From: Terriglobia bacterium
Lineage (GTDB): Bacteria > Acidobacteriota > Terriglobia > UBA7540
Direction: 5' to 3'
DNA length: 44,060 nt
Assembly (NCBI GenBank): GCA_020072655.1
Contig: JAIQGH010000021.1
Span: 17,775-61,834, forward strand
The position numbers and the translations under genes are program-made. Position 1 is the stretch's first letter. The number at the start of each line of letters is the position of its first letter. The notes below the pieces were generated by a model, which was not told the origin of the DNA, ran no database searches, and saw only the letters and a program-made list of their open reading frames with translations. Shown piece by piece: positions 6,094 through 35,228 of the stretch.

Positions 6094-6918
6094 TTGACGA
6101 AAGATTGGGTGATTTTCACCGACCTCGACGGCACCCTCCTCGACAGCACGACCTACCGTTGGACGGCGGCGCGGCGAGCCCTCGCAATCCTCCGCCAGCG
6201 CGGCGTGCCGTTGGTGATCGTCACCAGCAAGACGTGCGCGGAAGTGCTGCCGATCCTGCGGGCTCTCCGTCGCCGCGAGCCGTTTGTGGTTGAAAACGGC
6301 GGGGCAATTTACTTTCCCGAAGGTTATTTTCCCTCTCGCATTCCCGAGGCAGCTCCCGCGACGCGAGGGCTCCGCAGAGTGACGCTCGGCACGCCCCGCC
6401 GCAGGCTGGTTGCAGCGCTCAACCGCGCGGCCCGTCGCACAGGCGTGCACGTCCGGAGTTTTGCGGCCATGAGCGCCCGCGAGGTGGCGGAGCGGGCGGG
6501 GATGACCCTGCTCGAAGCCCGGCGCGCGGGGCGACGCGAATTCGATGAGCCATTCGTGTTGCTCAACCGCACGGACCGCGCGTGGAAGCGCCTGCGCGCC
6601 GAGATCCGCCGCCAGGGGTTCCACGTGACGCGGGGCAGCCGATTCTTCCATATCCTTGGGAACAACGACAAAGGGGCCGCGGTCCACAAGTTGATAGCCT
6701 GGTTTCGGCGGGCGCTTGGCACGCAGGTCAATTCGGTGGGCTTGGGCGACAGCCCCAACGACATTCCCATGCTCCGCGCTGTGGACGTGCCCGTCCTCGT
6801 TGCGCGGCCGGGCGGCCGCTACGATCTTGAGACGCTCGCTGCCGTCCCGCAAGCGCGCCGCGCCGGAGGGGTTGGTCCCGTGGGATGGAACCGAGCGATT
6901 GTGCGCCTGTTGGCTTGA
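6094..6918 (+). CDS. HAD-IIB mannosyl-/glucosyl-3-phosphoglycerate phosphatase
   Basis: A 274-aa HAD-IIB hydrolase expected to remove the phosphate from glucosyl- or mannosyl-3-phosphoglycerate, giving the free solute. Motif I FTDLDGTLLD is near residues 8-17, motif II Thr-Ser-Lys near 49-51, VENGGAIYFP near 66-75, the family-typical EFDEPF near 149-154, a conserved Lys in NNDKGAA near 190, and the metal site GLGDSPNDIPML near 209-220. The start is TTG at 6094 with GGAGG 5 nt upstream and 10 nt after the previous stop. It completes the GpgS pathway begun at 2879. MpgP and GpgP cannot be separated by eye. Confidence 0.85.
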   Translation: MTKDWVIFTDLDGTLLDSTTYRWTAARRALAILRQRGVPLVIVTSKTCAEVLPILRALRRREPFVVENGGAIYFPEGYFPSRIPEAAPATRGLRRVTLGTPRRRLVAALNRAARRTGVHVRSFAAMSAREVAERAGMTLLEARRAGRREFDEPFVLLNRTDRAWKRLRAEIRRQGFHVTRGSRFFHILGNNDKGAAVHKLIAWFRRALGTQVNSVGLGDSPNDIPMLRAVDVPVLVARPGGRYDLETLAAVPQARRAGGVGPVGWNRAIVRLLA

Positions 6919-7219
6919 CTCCGGGAAGGCTGAATTCTGCCCGTGCAGGCAAAGGCCCCGCAATCGTTCGCGGGGTGATGAAAGACGCGGTTTTGTCATG
7001 CTGAGCGACGCGAAGCATCCCTGCATTGAAAGGAAAACACAAAGATCCTTCGCTTCGCTCAGGATGACATCGTCCGAAGGCTTCTTCGTTAACCTGGCGG
7101 GAATTGACCTGGGCGTTCGTGTTATGTTTCCGCCGTGCAATCACTTGAAGGCACCGCGATGACGCCCAACCCCGCCCTCACGTATGTTATGTTAGGCGTT
7201 GAGCAACCGCGCATAACCC
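6919..7219. repeat. Intergenic region with REP-like hairpin, copy 1
   Basis: A 301-nt gap between the solute operon and gltX. It holds a long imperfect inverted repeat at 6994-7069: the left arm reads GTCATGCTGAGCGACGCGAAG and the right arm, beginning near 7046, ends in CGCTTCGCTCAGGATGAC. The centre is about 25 nt of unrelated sequence. The same arms recur at 24071-24202 and 31226-31299. No gene was seen in the gap. There is no T-tract after the hairpin, so it is a dispersed repeat rather than a simple terminator. Confidence 0.8.
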
Positions 7220-8722
7220 ATGCCTAAAGTCCGAGTCCGCTTCGCCCCCAGTCCCACGGGCTACGTCCATGTCGGGAACGCGCGCACCGCCTTATTCAAC
7301 TGGCTCTTTGCGCGTCATCACGGCGGAGCCTTTATCCTGCGCATTGAGGATACGGACGTCGAGCGGTCAAAGGAAGAATACGAGCGGCAGCTTCTGGAGG
7401 ACCTGCGCTGGTTTGGCCTCGATTGGGATGAAGGCCCGGACAAGGGCGGGCCGTTTGCGCCTTACCGGCAGTCGGAACGGCTTGACCTTTATCGGCGCCA
7501 TGCCATGCAGCTCATCGACGCCCGCCACGCGTATTACTGTTTCTGTTCGCCGGAGCAACTCGAAGCCGAGCGGCAGGCAGCGCTGAAGGCAGGCCAGCAG
7601 CCGCGCTATTCGGGGCGATGTCGCACGCGCCCGCGCGAGGAGGCGGCGCGCAAAGTAGCGGCGGGTGAGCCGGCAGCCATCCGCTTGCAGGTGCCGGAAG
7701 GAGTTTTCGACTGGAATGATCTTGTCCACGGCCCCACGACTTTTTCGAGCGAAGTTATGGGCGATTTCATCCTCGTCCGCTCCGACGGACAGCCGACCTA
7801 CAACTATTCGGTGGTGATTGACGATCATCTGATGGAGATCACCCACGTCATCCGCGGCGACGATCACATCTCGAACACGCCGCGCCAGCTTGCGCTCTAC
7901 CAGGCCTTCGGCTGGCAACGGCCGGAGTTCGCTCATCTCTCGACAATCCTTGGCCCCGATCGAGCGCGCTTGTCGAAGCGGCACGGGGCGACGTCGCTGC
8001 AGAATTTCCGCGAGATGGGAATCCTGCCCGAGGCTTTGCGGAATTATCTGGCCCTGCTCGGCTGGTCGGCGGCGGACGGAGTGACGGAAATCTTCAGCGA
8101 TCAGGAGCTCATCCGGCAGTTTTCCCTGGAGCGGGTTATCAAGAGCCCGGCAGTCTTTGACCAGGAAAAGCTCAACTGGATGAACCGGCACTACTTGAAG
8201 GAAGCTCGCCGGCGAAAGCTGGCGGAGTTGAGCGTGCCGTTTCTCGCCCAGGCTGGCTATCTCGAGGAGCCCGCTGACGAGCGCACGCTAGGCTGGCTCG
8301 AGCGCGTGCTCGATGCGGTGCTCAAGAATCTTGACACCCTGAGCCAGCTACCCGCTGCTGTTCGACTGATCTTCGAGTACGATGCCGAGGGCGTGCTGCG
8401 CGGCGACGAAACGCGCCACGTGGCCGAAAACGCTGGTTCGCGTGACGTGCTGAAGGCCTTGATACCGAAGCTGCTCGAAGTACGGGATCTTAACTACGAG
8501 CGTTTCCGTACCATCGCCAAGGCGGTGCAGAAAGAAACGGGAAAGAAAGGCAAAGACCTGTTTCACCCGATCCGAGTTGCTCTGACGGGCGCGATATCAG
8601 GACCTGAACTCGAAAAGCTGATTCCCATTTTCGAAGAAGGCTCGAAGCTGCCGCTGCGGCGCCACGTGAAGAGCGTCGCAGAGCGTTTGCGCGAATTCGC
8701 CGCTGCGGCGGGCCTTTCTTAA
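7220..8722 (+). CDS. gltX: Glutamate--tRNA ligase
   Basis: A 500-aa class I aminoacyl-tRNA synthetase that charges tRNA(Glu) in the cytoplasm. The N-terminus carries RFAPSPTGYVHVGNARTAL, with HVGN as the HIGH signature near residues 17-20, the GluRS LRIEDTD motif near 40, and RLSKRHGA (the KMSKS equivalent) near 251-258. The C-terminal anticodon-binding domain is complete and the length is normal for the family. It could be the discriminating or non-discriminating form; no gatCAB genes are in the window. The TAA stop directly abuts an inverted octamer array (8723-8852). Confidence 0.95.
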   Translation: MPKVRVRFAPSPTGYVHVGNARTALFNWLFARHHGGAFILRIEDTDVERSKEEYERQLLEDLRWFGLDWDEGPDKGGPFAPYRQSERLDLYRRHAMQLIDARHAYYCFCSPEQLEAERQAALKAGQQPRYSGRCRTRPREEAARKVAAGEPAAIRLQVPEGVFDWNDLVHGPTTFSSEVMGDFILVRSDGQPTYNYSVVIDDHLMEITHVIRGDDHISNTPRQLALYQAFGWQRPEFAHLSTILGPDRARLSKRHGATSLQNFREMGILPEALRNYLALLGWSAADGVTEIFSDQELIRQFSLERVIKSPAVFDQEKLNWMNRHYLKEARRRKLAELSVPFLAQAGYLEEPADERTLGWLERVLDAVLKNLDTLSQLPAAVRLIFEYDAEGVLRGDETRHVAENAGSRDVLKALIPKLLEVRDLNYERFRTIAKAVQKETGKKGKDLFHPIRVALTGAISGPELEKLIPIFEEGSKLPLRRHVKSVAERLREFAAAAGLS

Positions 8723-8852
8723 CCACGAAGACACAAAGGCACAAGGGAACAACCACGAAGGAGCAAAGCAAGGAGGACATACTCAAATCCTGAGGGAAGG
8801 GGTTTTGAGCCCGTAGTATCTTTCTTTGTGTCTTCGCGCCTTTGTGGTGGAA
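8723..8852. repeat. Inverted octamer array A (gltX-rlmB spacer)
   Basis: Left arm 8724-8747 is three 8-nt words of the form CACRAAGR. The right arm 8821-8846 is the inverted version with words of the form TGTCTTNG. The 13-nt CGAAGACACAAAG occurs in the left arm and, inverted, in the right. The loop of about 70 nt has no ORF. The array begins on the base after the gltX stop. The same word family builds array B at 15568-15693. Confidence 0.75.
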
Positions 8853-15567: not shown

Positions 15568-15693
15568 CACCACTAAGGCACAAAGACACCAAGCAAGACC
15601 GGGAAGGAAAAAGCACAGGCCAGGGATGAACAGCTTTCTGCCTTCCATTTTTCTGACGTGTCCTTTTCTTTGTGTCTTGGTGTCTTTGTGGTG
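15568..15693. repeat. Inverted octamer array B (CDF-serS spacer)
   Basis: Left arm 15568-15593 contains CACAAAGACACCAAG; right arm 15665-15693 is its inverse, with octamers of the form TGTCTTNG. The loop is about 70 nt without an ORF. The word family is the same as array A. It lies between the convergent ends of the CDF gene and serS, and could act as a bidirectional stop in RNA, although no T-tract is present. Confidence 0.75.
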
Positions 15694-18845: not shown

Positions 18846-18859
18846 ACATGAACAGTAAG

Positions 18860-18964
18860 GGTTCTGGGTGCTAGGTGCTGGGGACTGGGGGCTGCGAACG
18901 ACGTTATCCGATGTTGCAGCACCTGACATCCAGAACCTAGAACCTAGCACCCAGCACCCAGCAC
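18860..18964. repeat. Inverted heptamer array C (hisF-hisA spacer)
   Basis: The left arm has five consecutive 7-nt words of the form GGNNCTR (18860-18894). The right arm has five words of the form CYAGNAC (18930-18964), the inverse of the left. The 35-nt centre has no ORF. The right arm ends one base before the complement of the hisF stop codon, so the array begins immediately after hisF. The word family is the same as in arrays E and F. Confidence 0.85.
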
Positions 18965-18965
18965 C

Positions 18966-19859
18966 TCAACCCAATCTTACCGGAACCCCCCGGGCCCGAA
19001 GATACTCCTTCAGGCTGCGAATCGTGTGCGTCTCATAGTGGAAAATCGAGGCAGCGAGCGCCGCGTCCGCCGCGCCGCGCAGGAAGACCTCGGCAAAATG
19101 CTCCGGACCGCCCGCTCCGCCCGAGGCGATGACGGGGATATGCACGGCATGCGAGATGGTTGCCGTCAGCACGCAGTCAAAGCCTGCCTGCGTGCCGTCC
19201 GCGTCCATCGAAGTCAGCAGAATCTCCCCGCAACCGAGCTTCTCGACACGTCGCGCCCACTCGACGGCATCGAGCCCGGTAGGGCGCGTGCCTCCGTAAG
19301 TCACCACCGTCCAGTTCGTGGCCGCAGGCCCCTCCGGGGGGGGAGCGGAAACTGGAACCCGGAAATTGGAAACTGGCACAACATCGCGTATCGTGTGGAG
19401 GACCTCGATCTTCGAATTTCGAATTTCGAGTTTCGAGTTTCCGGTTTCTTGTCCTCTTGTCCGCCGTGCGTCGATGGCCACGACTACCGCCTGGCTTCCG
19501 AAGCGCTCGGCAAGTTCCGTAATAAGTTCCGGTGTCTCGACGGCCGCCGTATTGATGGCTACTTTGTCGGAGCCCGCTCCGAGCAGCCGGCGCCCGTCCT
19601 CAAGCGTGCGCACGCCGCCGCCCACCGTAAGCGGGATGAAGAGCTTGCGCGCCACGCGGTTGACGGTATCCATGAGCGTGGCCCGGCCTTCGCGCGAGGC
19701 GGAGATATCGAGCATCACCAACTCGTCCGCGCCCTCGCGGTTGTAAACCGCGGCCAACTCGCCCGGATCCCCCGCGTCGCGCAGGTTCACGAATTGGATC
19801 CCCTTCACGACGCGTCCATCCTTGCAGTCGAGGCACGGGATGATGCGTTTGGCAAACAT
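18966..19859 (-). CDS. hisF: Imidazole glycerol phosphate synthase subunit HisF, with in-frame insertion
   Basis: A 297-aa TIM-barrel cyclase subunit. With HisH it converts PRFAR and ammonia to IGP and AICAR. Catalytic Asp11 (PCLDCKDG) and Asp130 (VVAIDARR) are at the standard positions, and the partner of Thermotoga Asp176 is at 219 ([10 protein letters not shown]). HisF is normally about 253 aa; the extra 43-45 residues lie between Arg133 and Asn182 and are encoded by a palindromic repeat (19320-19454). The rest, including [10 protein letters not shown] near 80-89 and [11 protein letters not shown] near 245-255, is intact, so the enzyme may still work. It starts 14 nt after the end of the S23 element. 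Confidence 0.93.
19320..19454. repeat. Inverted heptamer array D, inserted in hisF coding sequence
   Basis: The left arm at 19348-19375 is four 7-nt words of the form GAANYYG. The right arm at 19411-19450 has about six words of the form TTTCGAR or similar, inverse to the left. The core of about 35 nt contains GGCACAACATC and CTCGATCTTCG. The insert has no stop in the hisF frame and its length fits a multiple of three. The core is clearly related to array G (28982-29130). Exact ends cannot be fixed by eye because no target duplication is obvious. Confidence 0.85.
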
Positions 19860-19872
19860 TCTCTTTCCAGAA

Positions 19873-20326
19873 GGTTCTGGGTGCTGGGGGCTGGGTGCTA
19901 AGACCCTCCCTGCTCAAGCGATTTCATCAATGCATGAAGGATGCGCCCGACCTGCGCAGCTTTCCCCAGAATTGCTTTCGCGGATTCCTCAGATAGCAAT
20001 TTCTGCCGCCGACAGAGCTCAATTTGAGTTTCGAGTTCTGATTGAGAACCCAGAGCGATCGACAGGTGGTTCAAATATGCCTGAAGGGTGCGCCGACTAT
20101 GCCCCTCTGCGATGTTAGAGGGGACAGACACGGCGGCCCTGCGAATCTGACTTGCCAAACCGTAGATCTCTCTCGATGGAAACCGAGATGTCGCCTCATA
20201 ACAGATCTCAGCCAATTGCATCGCCTCTTGCCAGACTTCTAAGTCGCGATATGAACGTATGACTGTCGGCTTCATCGCCAGCACCCACCACCTAGAACCC
20301 AGAACCCAAAACCTAGCACCCAGCAC
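19873..20326 (-). mobile_element. IVS-like element E: inverted heptamer arms enclosing an S23 gene
   Basis: The right arm at 20278-20326 is seven 7-nt words of the form CYANNAC. The left arm at 19873-19900 is four words of the form GGNNCTR, the inverse. Between them is a single complete four-helix-bundle gene on the minus strand. The S23 ATG begins two bases after the right arm and its stop codon is the last three bases of the left arm. The element fills nearly the whole hisH-hisF gap. The layout is that of 23S rRNA intervening sequences (stem arms plus S23 ORF) but at a protein-coding locus. Confidence 0.75.
19898..20275 (-). CDS. S23/IVP-type four-helix-bundle protein
   Basis: A 125-aa helical protein of the 23S rRNA intervening-sequence (S23, IVP) family. 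It has [16 protein letters not shown] near residues 8-23, [14 protein letters not shown] near 49-62, and [18 protein letters not shown] near 71-88, the three blocks that define the family. Known members form pentamers and resemble Avd of diversity-generating retroelements; a catalytic activity has not been established. ATG 20275 is chosen because upstream codons to 20326 are read from the repeat arm. The TAG stop lies inside the opposite arm. It is co-directional with the his operon. Confidence 0.9.
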
Positions 20327-20329
20327 CCT

Positions 20330-27961: not shown

Positions 27962-28972
27962 ATGCGACACATCGTCGTAGATGCCATGGGAACAGACACG
28001 GCGCCCGCGCCGGAAGTGGAAGGCGCAATCTTGGCCGTGCGCGCGGGGTGGGCCAAGGTGACGCTGGCGGGCCCCCAGGACCTGCTCCGGAGGGAACTGG
28101 CGCGGCGCGACGCGCGAGGATTGGGCATCGAGATTGCCCATGCCAGCCAAGTCGTGACCATGGAGGACGCCGCGGCCAAGGCGTTCCGGCTGAAGCGCGA
28201 CTCTTCCATCCGCGTGGCCGCACGCCTCGTCAGGGACGGCAAGGCGCATGGCATGGTCAGCGCTGGCAATACCGGCGCCGTGATGGCGACGGCGAAGATC
28301 ACTCTAGGTGTCCTCGAAGGGGTGGAGCGCCCGGCCCTGGCCGCGGTTCTCCCCAACTCCAAGGGTACGGCGACGGCGTTGCTCGACGTGGGCGCCAATG
28401 TGGACTGCGAGGTGCACAACCTCGAGCAGTCGGCGGTGATGGGGGAGATCTTCTACCGCGTGATTTTCGACGCAAAACGTCCGCGCGTGGGCCTGCTTTC
28501 CAACGGACAGGAGACCCACAAAGGGAACTCCCTGACGCGCGAAGCGTGCGCCCGTCTGAAAGCGTTGCCCCTGAATTTCGTCGGCTATGTCGAAGGGCGC
28601 GACATCTACAATGGCCGCCTGGACGTCATCGTCACGGACGGATTCACGGGCAATGTCGTGCTGAAGACCAGCGAGGGGATGGTTGAGGTCATCTCCAGCA
28701 TGCTGAGGGAAGCTCTGTCGAGCACCACGAGCGCCAAGGTGGGCTATGTCCTGGCGCGCCGGGCGCTCCAAGCCTTCAAGAAACGTGTGGATTACTCCGA
28801 ATACGGCGGCGCCCCGTTGCTCGGGGTGCGCGGCGTTTGCATCATCTGCCACGGCGGATCGAATGCGAACGCCATCAAGAATGCCGTCCGCGTGGCCTCG
28901 GAGTTTGCGTTGGGACAAGTGAACGAGAAAATTGAGCACGAGCTCGCAGGAGTCTCCCTGGGTCGGAAGTAG
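27962..28972 (+). CDS. plsX: Phosphate acyltransferase PlsX
   Basis: A 336-aa peripheral-membrane enzyme making acyl-phosphate from acyl-ACP for phospholipid synthesis. The N-terminus [23 protein letters not shown] near residues 98-111, DVGANVDCE near 142-150, KGNSLTREA near 189-197, and [16 protein letters not shown] near 223-238 match the family. There is no clear ribosome site before ATG 27962, as array F ends 6 nt upstream. It is a normal operon member between rpmF and fabH. Confidence 0.93.
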
Positions 28973-28981
28973 GCGAGGCGG

Positions 28982-29130
28982 GAAACTGGAGATTGGAAAC
29001 TGGAAATTAGAAACTGGAAACTGGAAATTAGAAACTCGAAACTGGAAATTAGAAACTGGCACATCATCTTATTGGATGGGGCCGCGATCTTCGAGTTCCC
29101 AATTTCTCATTTCGTCTTTCTCTTCTTGAG
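28982..29130. repeat. Inverted heptamer array G (plsX-fabH spacer)
   Basis: The left arm is eleven consecutive 7-nt words of the form GARAYTR (28982-29058). The core contains GGCACATCATC and CGCGATCTTCGAG. The right arm about 29089-29130 has five to six words beginning TTC or TTT. The core and words match array D inside hisF. The plsX TAG is 9 nt upstream, and the fabH GAGG ribosome site lies at the right-arm edge. Confidence 0.85.
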
Positions 29131-29139
29131 GCAGACATT

Positions 29140-30120
29140 ATGACGTCGGCAGGAATCCTCGGTACGGGCGCAGCGCTGCCCGAGAAGGTGATCACCAATT
29201 TCGACCTGGAGAAACTGGTGGACACCTCCGATGAATGGATCACGGATCGCACCGGCATCAAGGAGCGTCGGCAGGCCGGAGCGGACGAGACGACTTCGTC
29301 GCTGTCGGTCTCAGCGGCGCGAAAAGCGCTCGACATGGCGGGACTCAAGCCCCCAGACCTTGACCTGATTATCTGCTCCACGATTTCTCCGGACATGCCG
29401 CTGCCCTCCACTGCGGCGCTGATCCAGCGCGATCTGGGGGCGCGTGCCTGTTGCGCGTTCGACCTGGCGGCGGCCTGCTCGGGATTCCTCTTCGGTATGA
29501 CTGTCGCCGACACTTTTATCAAGACGGGAAAGGCCAAGTACGTGCTGGTGATCGGCGCGGAAATCCTTTCCCGGTATGTCGACTACCAGGATCGCGCCAC
29601 CTGCGTGATTTTTGGCGATGGGGTGGCGGCGGGGGTCATGGGGCCGGTAGATCCACCCTCGGGAATCCTCGCCGAGGAAATGCACACCGAAGGCGCATTC
29701 GCCGAGCATCTTTTCATTCCCGCGGGGGGAACCGCCAAGCCTACCAGTTGCGAGACCATTCAGGAACGTGGACACTACATCAAGATGCGCGGCAACGAAC
29801 TTTTCAAAGTCGCCGTGCGGAACATGGAGGAGGTCTCGAGGCGGGTCCTCAAGGAGGCGGGCGTTTGTGCCGAGCAGTTGGACCTCTTCATTCCCCACCA
29901 AGCCAACCAACGGATCACCGATGCGGTGCGGGAACGCCTCGGCCTCAGTCCGGAGAAGGTCTACTCGAACATCAGCCGCGTCGGGAATACGTCCTCGGCC
30001 TCGATCCCCATTTGCCTCGACGATTGCGTGCGCAGCGGACGCATTAAGAAGGGCGACTTGATTCTGATGTCGGCCTTCGGAGCAGGGGTGACCTGGGGAG
30101 CTGTCCTGATGCGCTGGTGA
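29140..30120 (+). CDS. fabH: 3-oxoacyl-ACP synthase III
   Basis: A 326-aa condensing enzyme starting fatty-acid synthesis from acetyl-CoA and malonyl-ACP. The catalytic triad is visible: Cys in DLAAACSGFLFG near residue 113, His in FIPHQANQRI near 252 and Asn in RVGNTSSASIP near 282. STISPDMPLPSTAA is near 85-98. ATG 29140 with GAGG upstream. Full length. Confidence 0.95.
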   Translation: MTSAGILGTGAALPEKVITNFDLEKLVDTSDEWITDRTGIKERRQAGADETTSSLSVSAARKALDMAGLKPPDLDLIICSTISPDMPLPSTAALIQRDLGARACCAFDLAAACSGFLFGMTVADTFIKTGKAKYVLVIGAEILSRYVDYQDRATCVIFGDGVAAGVMGPVDPPSGILAEEMHTEGAFAEHLFIPAGGTAKPTSCETIQERGHYIKMRGNELFKVAVRNMEEVSRRVLKEAGVCAEQLDLFIPHQANQRITDAVRERLGLSPEKVYSNISRVGNTSSASIPICLDDCVRSGRIKKGDLILMSAFGAGVTWGAVLMRW

Positions 30121-30130
30121 GCCCACGGAC

Positions 30131-30242
30131 TGATTGAGTGATTTTGCGATTGGGTGATTGAGCGATTGAAGAACTGAAGGATTGACGGGCAAATTCACTC
30201 AATCACTAAATCGCCAAATGGCTCAATCGCCCAATCACTCAA
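30131..30242. repeat. Inverted octamer array H (fabH-fabD spacer)
   Basis: The left arm 30131-30186 is seven 8-nt words of the form YGATTGRR. The right arm 30195-30242 is six words of the form TCRCYMAA, the inverse. The loop is only about 8 nt, so the RNA would form a long, imperfect hairpin between two co-transcribed genes. The fabH stop is 11 nt upstream. Confidence 0.85.
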
Positions 30243-32093: not shown

Positions 32094-32308
32094 CGAGTGA
32101 CAAGTGACGAGAGGCGAGGCAAGGAGTCAGAATCCAGAATCCAGAATTCAGAATAAGAAAAGCAGCGGGAGGAGCAGCTGAGCCCTGAAAGAAAGTCGGC
32201 GCGGGTGTTGGGGAATCCGGAGGAGGTCGGCAGCCAGCTCAACGACCACGCCGATGCTGTCCGGTCTCTGGCCTTCTGCATTCTGACTTCTGGCTTCTGA
32301 ATTCTTCT
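32090..32308. repeat. Inverted heptamer array J (fabG-acpP spacer)
   Basis: It begins with words of the form GTGACRA (32090-32110) whose first copy contains the fabG stop codon. A second set of the form YCAGAAT (32127-32154) follows. The right arm of six words of the form TTCTGNN lies at 32267-32308 and is the inverse of the second set. The loop is about 110 nt and holds only a short open frame with no recognised product. The gap is otherwise empty. Confidence 0.8.
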
Positions 32309-34784: not shown

Positions 34785-35228
34785 ATGTTTGTCCATATTT
34801 GGAGAATGCGAGGACGCAAGAAGCGCGCGGAAGACTACGAGAAGTTTGGCCGCCAGGTCACCTTGCCGGCCTTGAAGAAGCTGGATGGATGCGTGGACGC
34901 GCATTTCATTAGGGTCTTCGAGGCACGCAAACCGGAGTACCTGTGGCTGGTTTTCTGGCGAGACCAGGAAGCGCTGGAAGCCGCCCGCAATAATCCCGTC
35001 TGGAAAGACCAGATCAGGAAGTTCGAAGCCGGGAAGTTCTATAAGACAATCCCACTCGAACTGGTCTGTGAGTCGCTCGGCAGCTTTGGGGCCGTTGCCG
35101 AGAAGCCCAAGAAGGTTGAGAAGGCAGAGAAAGTCGAGAAGGCCGAGAAAGCGGTGAAGGCCGAGAAGCCGCCGAAGGACGAGGGTCCGGCCAAAGCCTT
35201 TGTCGCCCCCACGGTGGAAGGGGAGTAA
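34785..35228 (+). CDS. ABM-like protein with Lys/Glu-rich repeat tail
   Basis: A 147-aa protein. Residues 1-95 look like a ferredoxin-like antibiotic-biosynthesis-monooxygenase (ABM) domain (start MFVHIWRMRG, LVFWRDQEALEAARNNPVW near 54-72). Residues 103-135 are a low-complexity tail of KAEK and VEKAEK repeats, probably an extended or helical charged segment. GGAGGGA precedes ATG 34785. The role is unknown; the unusual place between etfB and etfA suggests a link to electron transfer or co-expression only. Confidence 0.65.
   Translation: MFVHIWRMRGRKKRAEDYEKFGRQVTLPALKKLDGCVDAHFIRVFEARKPEYLWLVFWRDQEALEAARNNPVWKDQIRKFEAGKFYKTIPLELVCESLGSFGAVAEKPKKVEKAEKVEKAEKAVKAEKPPKDEGPAKAFVAPTVEGE

Follow-up and report, generated by a model that had tools for sequence, protein, structure and literature searches.

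Inverted arrays of 7-nt words between plsX and fabH in a Terriglobia genome: probably a short, non-autonomous copy of a mobile element linked to S23 genes

What kind of sequence is the array of 7-nt words that lies between plsX and fabH in this bacterium, and does it move? The array belongs to a 4.36 Mb draft genome of 209 contigs (G000, contig C183) and was analysed within a stretch of 44,060 nucleotides, hereafter the window. An earlier note had described a left array of eleven uninterrupted GARAYTR words and proposed a mobile unit with a defined core, related to an insertion in hisF. The left array is real: eleven words follow one another in perfect 7-nt register (starting at 28982, 28989, 28996, 29003, 29010, 29017, 29024, 29031, 29038, 29045, and 29052), and Tandem Repeats Finder placed it at 28981-29059 with a period of 7, 11.3 copies, and a score of 95. 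Ten of the words fit GARAYTR, but the eighth, at 29031, reads GAAACTC. Overlooked in that description were five inverted words at 29086-29120, in order GATCTTC, GAGTTCC, CAATTTC, TCATTTC, and GTCTTTC, and our word-arm detector coupled 28996-29026 with 29090-29120. The target is an inverted pair of arrays, with eleven plus five words in register, and displays the architecture of two inverted 7- or 8-nt word arms; the detailed sequence of the left and right words differs. Its 27-nt core holds no S23 gene, the window contained no Rfam matches, and the target does not lie in a 23S rRNA gene. The locus is laid out as follows:

27962..28972, + strand: upstream neighbour (ORF list), which we take from its protein to be plsX
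28982..29058, + strand: target left arm of eleven 7-nt words, all GARAYTR save one GAAACTC (sequence, Tandem Repeats Finder)
29059..29085, + strand: target core, 27 nt, about 10 nt in common with the hisF copy and otherwise not shared
29086..29120, - strand: target right arm, five words in 7-nt register, inverted relative to the left arm (sequence and detector)
29140..30120, + strand: downstream neighbour (ORF list), presumably, from its protein, a fabH-type ketoacyl-ACP synthase

The target is not alone. The detector, which looks for inverted arms with a period of 7 or 8, found seven pairs in the window, whereas 10 shuffled windows yielded not a single one. The other elements of the window are these:

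8722-8848 and 15568-15693: inverted word-arm pairs of 8-nt CACAAAGA-type words (detector)
18859..18959, no strand assigned: short GGTGCTG-class element between hisA and hisF (detector)
19348..19448, no strand assigned: short element of the target's class inside hisF, in frame, with four words, a 31-nt core (19376-19406), and six inverted words (sequence, detector, relatives)
19873..20328, - strand: S23-carrying element with GGTGCTG words between hisF and hisH, inverted word arms on both sides
19898-20275, - strand: S23 gene (four-helix bundle) in this GGTGCTG-class element, an ORF between the arms
30132..30228, no strand assigned: short element of 8-nt words (TGATTGAG type) downstream of fabH (detector)
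32121-32306: two inverted arms of GAAGTCA-type words, separated by a 120-nt loop (detector)

Across the genome, a three-word pattern gave 15 forward and 15 reverse matches, with none for the reversed-pattern control, and the target used as a blastn query gave 62 matches. Arm hits within 500 nt of each other formed 20 pairs in forward-then-inverted order and 0 in the opposite order, a tally of arm hits only, in which two pairs overlap and some true pairs, the target included, were counted as unpaired. The spacing between paired arms was mostly 8-180 nt, and one gap of 424 nt holds an S23/IVP gene (L038, C183:8216-8533), which sits between GARAYTR arms of the same word class as the target. A gene related to it, L039, also lies between GARAYTR-type arms. 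Assigned by eye, the S23 partners of the other word classes are L034 and L037 for GGTGCTG, L036 for GAAGTCA, and L045-L047 for TGATTGAG, and none with CACAAAGA-type words was seen among the genome's 17 S23 genes.

The core, in turn, proved to be a less constant feature than proposed. The motif CGATCTTCGA, counted by the earlier note as part of the shared core, in fact opens the right arm as its innermost word. When the target core (29059-29085) is set against that of the hisF copy (19376-19406), the opening 11 nt of the comparison match at 10 positions, and the first of the 11 is the last base of the arm; this is the best anchored match among the 153 pairs of 18 cores, with a runner-up of 8/11. 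Free local alignment of the two cores scored 9 (P 0.015 against shuffles of that pair alone), and two other core pairs scored 10, so that a score of 9 is not unusual among pairs. With the arms masked, similarity thus persists over about 10 nt, weakly beyond chance, and nothing further is alike. Exact matches of ACTGGCACANCATC in the genome were confined to the target and hisF copies, and one mismatch brought 11 further matches versus 10 for the reversed-pattern control at an equal setting. In the sister species G001, the hisF core agrees with the target core at 11 of 11 positions, and that species' own plsX-fabH element is without this stretch. A recent link between the target and hisF copies is therefore possible on these alignments. 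A core common to the class was ruled out by the genome search and the comparison of the 18 cores, all of which differ and range from 13 nt (the cut-off of the analysis) to 74 nt, and it is the arm architecture that stays constant. The idea that the hisF core is a remnant of an S23 gene start, judged by eye only, was unsupported.

The arms led instead to S23/IVP (PF05635), of which this genome has 17 genes. We compared each upstream flank with the inverted downstream flank, the gene's own pair against all mismatched pairs. For 15 of the 17 genes, the own far flank was the best of 17 possible partners; the window's S23 gene (hisH-hisF) ranked second, behind only a gene with identical words, and one gene, L040, had no arms. 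Word classes are mostly different between the S23 copies of this genome. An S23-carrying copy measures about 450 nt in all, with S23 as the single gene between the arms; no transposase or other enzyme gene was present between the arms of the larger copies, and ends shared with a transposase element, as in a MITE, were not found. In the phylum, PF05635 occurred in 147 of 297 sampled genomes, compared with 0 of 14 control genomes. The loci tested were the best-scoring of each search, and the overall fraction with arms may be lower than in these sets: 29 best scorers were fetched from the phylum, and 20 of the 24 parsed exceeded the 95th percentile of mismatched pairs. From named genomes (Acidobacteria, Cyanobacteria, Proteobacteria, Chloroflexi, Planctomycetes, Bacteroidetes, Firmicutes, and others), the best 80 of 581 loci were taken, and among the 77 testable ones, 61 exceeded the 95th percentile and 36 the 99th, with a mean flank score for named loci of 24.0 versus 10.3 for mismatched pairs.

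Pooling 122 loci (16 from this genome, L040 being left out; 26 of the 29 from the phylum, three unparsed ones being left out; and the 80 named loci) gave 99 that passed the arm cut-off. Their best period was 7 in 83, 8 in 14, and another value in 2, against roughly 10% for each period in shuffles; the upstream arm had more G than C in 93 of the 99, and the median aligned arm measured 34 nt, just under five words. These flank comparisons show arm architecture tightly tied to S23 genes in many phyla. Word similarity rose with S23 protein similarity (Mantel r 0.20, P 0.001), an association nearly confined to identities above 60%; L191 (Nostoc) and L195 (Chloroflexus) are an example across phyla, with 67% identity and a word cosine of 0.72. 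A tally of word similarity across phyla was set aside, since many of its rows lacked a phylum label and had been scored as different. Because word similarity fades below about 60%, a lasting code between protein and words is not supported. The S23 protein itself is under strong constraint, with dN/dS values of 0.08, 0.16, 0.13, and 0.07 in the four computable pairs (6 of 10 pairs were dS-saturated). None of 20 named loci tested for location in rRNA lay there.

Movement was assessed by comparing orthologous sites. At the junction of two genes that we take from their proteins to be rpsG and fusA, 38 of 41 genomes in one genus of the same phylum matched the query and 30 loci were kept. Four of these were empty, with the genes nearly touching, and 26 were non-empty. 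An S23 copy with GTAAATC-type words was present in two loci (G230, G371), and in G162 the site was occupied by a short element of GTAAATC-type words whose core spans a few nt. Arms scored above all 20 shuffles in 21 of the 30 loci, 17 of them with a period of 7 or 8, and were not clear in five; about nine word classes were distinguished by eye. On a tree of the flanks, many inner branches of which were weak, the content of the site differed in five of six well-supported sister pairs. A second site, in genus g77 (29 loci parsed of 30), held four S23 copies, which fall into two or more word classes, six near-empty loci of just 26-36 nt, one locus with a word remnant, and different inserts elsewhere. 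No target-site duplication was visible there among orthologues that are strongly diverged, and the clearly empty sites, just about 72-88% identical in their flanks, gave no exact target. At this same site, five loci (L334-L337 and L351) contain similar-looking inserts of about 570 nt where other loci carry S23 elements; an S23 motif was absent in L334, the one tested.

The target's own class behaved likewise. Among 29 hisF loci, both arms were found at the same place in four and decayed words in three; 19 were without word arms in the part read, and three were unparsed. For the plsX-fabH site, plsX orthologues were present in 55 of 61 genomes and 21 of 30 loci were parsed: GARAYTR-class elements occurred in this genome, G001, G008, and L117, 8-nt words in L115, L120, and L123, and a gap of about 40 nt in eight loci. 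The left arm counts about two words in the sister species G001 versus 11 here. The comparisons of related species show whole elements as present, absent, or swapped at orthologous sites, with the number of words changing fast. Together with the polarity of 20 pairs to 0, the hisF insert and the variable plsX-fabH gap uphold the mobile unit of the earlier note, although its arms, rather than a core, define it. A pair of Calothrix plasmids, considered as a fresh insertion, was ruled out, for about 3.5 kb around the element is common to both plasmids.

We therefore propose that the target probably belongs to the short, non-autonomous copies of an S23-linked mobile element, in which inverted arms of 7-nt words surround a small, variable core and the larger copies carry S23. 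S23 would recognise the words of its own hairpin, as RNA or as single-stranded DNA, and would thereby let its own copy and the short copies spread, the latter being helped in trans. The S23-carrying copies would thus act as autonomous partners on which the short copies ride. Host enzymes could copy or insert the hairpin, a step assigned to the host because the element codes for no enzyme. Given that this genome has no reverse transcriptase match and that Y1 genes are flanked by REP-type palindromes and not by words, the likeliest picture is one in which S23 binds the words and host enzymes copy or insert the hairpin.

Other explanations have to be weighed against this proposal. The elements might be functional hairpins kept by selection, forming an mRNA stem at operon junctions (for processing, decoupling, or protection), with S23 as a host RNA-binding protein and slippage as the only mobility needed. 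Their position between co-directional genes, the strong constraint on S23, and the 26 of 30 non-empty rpsG-fusA junctions in one genus, where a hairpin could be useful, would suit such a role. We nevertheless consider it unlikely, since whole elements are missing from orthologous sites or swapped for other word classes between sister species, one element lies inside hisF, and the single-stranded DNA fold of the target was not better than that of shuffles (z -0.43). Plain slippage of tandem repeats, yielding two arrays by chance with S23 genes as bystanders, would explain the fast change of word number (about two versus 11 in the left arm at plsX-fabH) but is scarcely credible in view of the inverted partner arms, the polarity of 20 to 0, and the absence of pairs in 10 shuffled windows. 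The restriction of the period to 7 or 8, with S23 between the arms across phyla, speaks against it as well, and the mismatched-pair control had already disfavoured it.

A further rival is a REPIN-type element moved, as inverted short palindromic repeats, by a RAYT/Y1 transposase encoded elsewhere: like the elements described here, REPINs are pairs of short inverted repeats between genes, and their spread is attributed to a protein that the repeats themselves do not encode (PMC3116915), and Y1_Tnp (PF01797) was found in 12 of 13 S23-rich genomes, with six matches in this one. However, REPINs consist of palindromic REP units and depend on a Y1 transposase, and the Y1 flanks here are of that kind: of 16 Y1 loci, 11 had inverted flanks above the mismatched 95th percentile, yet by eye these were palindromic and REP-type, with no arrays of 7- or 8-nt words. 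The target, for its part, lacks palindromic REP units of the kind that accompany RAYT genes, and no Y1 match was obtained in one genome that contains 10 S23 genes. Flank type thus rules out Y1/RAYT as the same system, and we regard a REPIN origin of the target as improbable. To a similarly small degree, we credit retro-mobility, in which element RNA would be turned into DNA by a reverse transcriptase in trans and S23 would act like Avd of diversity-generating retroelements, a four-helix protein similar to S23 according to PMC10053308, which relates PF05635 to Avd. In the phylum sample, S23 and RVT_1 co-occurred in 62 genomes, 85 had S23 only, 37 RVT_1 only, and 113 neither (odds ratio 2.2, P 0.002, uncorrected for genome size or kinship). 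Avd, however, works with a reverse transcriptase, and this genome, at 96% completeness, contains 17 S23 genes but gave no match to RVT_1 (PF00078), which rules out such an enzyme as a necessary partner here, save for one beyond the reach of PF00078 or active in the past; moreover, RVT_1 was absent from 85 of 147 S23 genomes.

The proposed S23-linked element has known counterparts, foremost in rRNA. In Coxiella burnetii, the 23S rRNA intervening sequence (IVS) is bounded by terminal inverted repeats that enclose an S23 gene, and upstream of this gene lie tandem GACAGAT heptamers, more in some strains than in others (PMC4990558). The IVS had already been proposed to derive from a mobile element that requires the ORF in order to move (Ralph and McClelland 1993, cited in PMC4990558). 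The target shares the inverted ends with tandem heptamers, and the window's copy at 19873-20328 also has the S23 gene. By contrast, the IVS is located in 23S rRNA, from which RNase III removes it, whereas the elements here occur in many copies between protein genes or within them, and most have no S23 gene. The dispersed word-arm elements are, by these shared features of sequence, a wider form of the same kind as the 23S rRNA IVS.

Arrays of heptamers occur in other settings too, including the TAACTGA arrays of Beggiatoaceae, which, like the elements here, are 7-nt tandem words between genes. The authors of PMC4679880 weighed either a mobile origin of these arrays or a mobile protein that binds the words; these are direct arrays, however, with one inverted case reported, and the main text mentions neither "S23" nor "four helix". 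In the literature searched (including PMC4990558, PMC4679880, PMC10053308, PMC3174227, and PMC3116915, with many journals and bioRxiv outside its reach), no description was found of S23 genes flanked by inverted word arms at sites other than rRNA, or of short relatives.

S23/IVP has been known for decades, mainly from rRNA insertions, and its function is unsettled; here it is the only gene of a hairpin element in many phyla, with short copies in gene junctions and even within hisF. If S23 drives the spread, this would answer what the protein and the IVS are, would account for a share of the 7-nt repeat arrays in environmental genomes, and would make a mobile element without an enzyme of its own available for study; the rpsG-fusA site makes its rates and targets measurable. 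Heptamer arrays are also known from cyanobacteria, as STRR and as small dispersed repeats embedded in heptamers. A broader and rather doubtful extension of the proposal is an enzyme-less mobile class across phyla, in which a ring-shaped S23 of four-helix bundles might grip the 7-nt words and enlist replication or repair by the host, so that the hairpin is copied into gene junctions; the best-known outpost of this class would be the 23S IVS. Such a ring may bind about one word per subunit, a figure suggested by the median arm of about five words and by a solved S23 relative of five four-helix bundles. Two PDB entries, 2gsc and 2rld, are S23 relatives; the molecule of 2gsc, Xanthomonas Xcc0516, is an assembly of five four-helix bundles, per a title cited in PMC10053308.

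Several further repeats were seen along the way. In four genomes (L128, L129, L130, and L135), HisF retains an in-frame insert coded by word arms, and this insert is, as translated, a protein loop made of repeat words. Within the window, a 9/18-nt tandem repeat at 35097-35183 lies in an ORF and gives a Lys/Glu/Ala-rich tail. At about 6900-7110, ORFs on both strands contain a peptide of the DVILSEAKDL / HPERSEGS type, which we take to be another dispersed repeat of such genomes.
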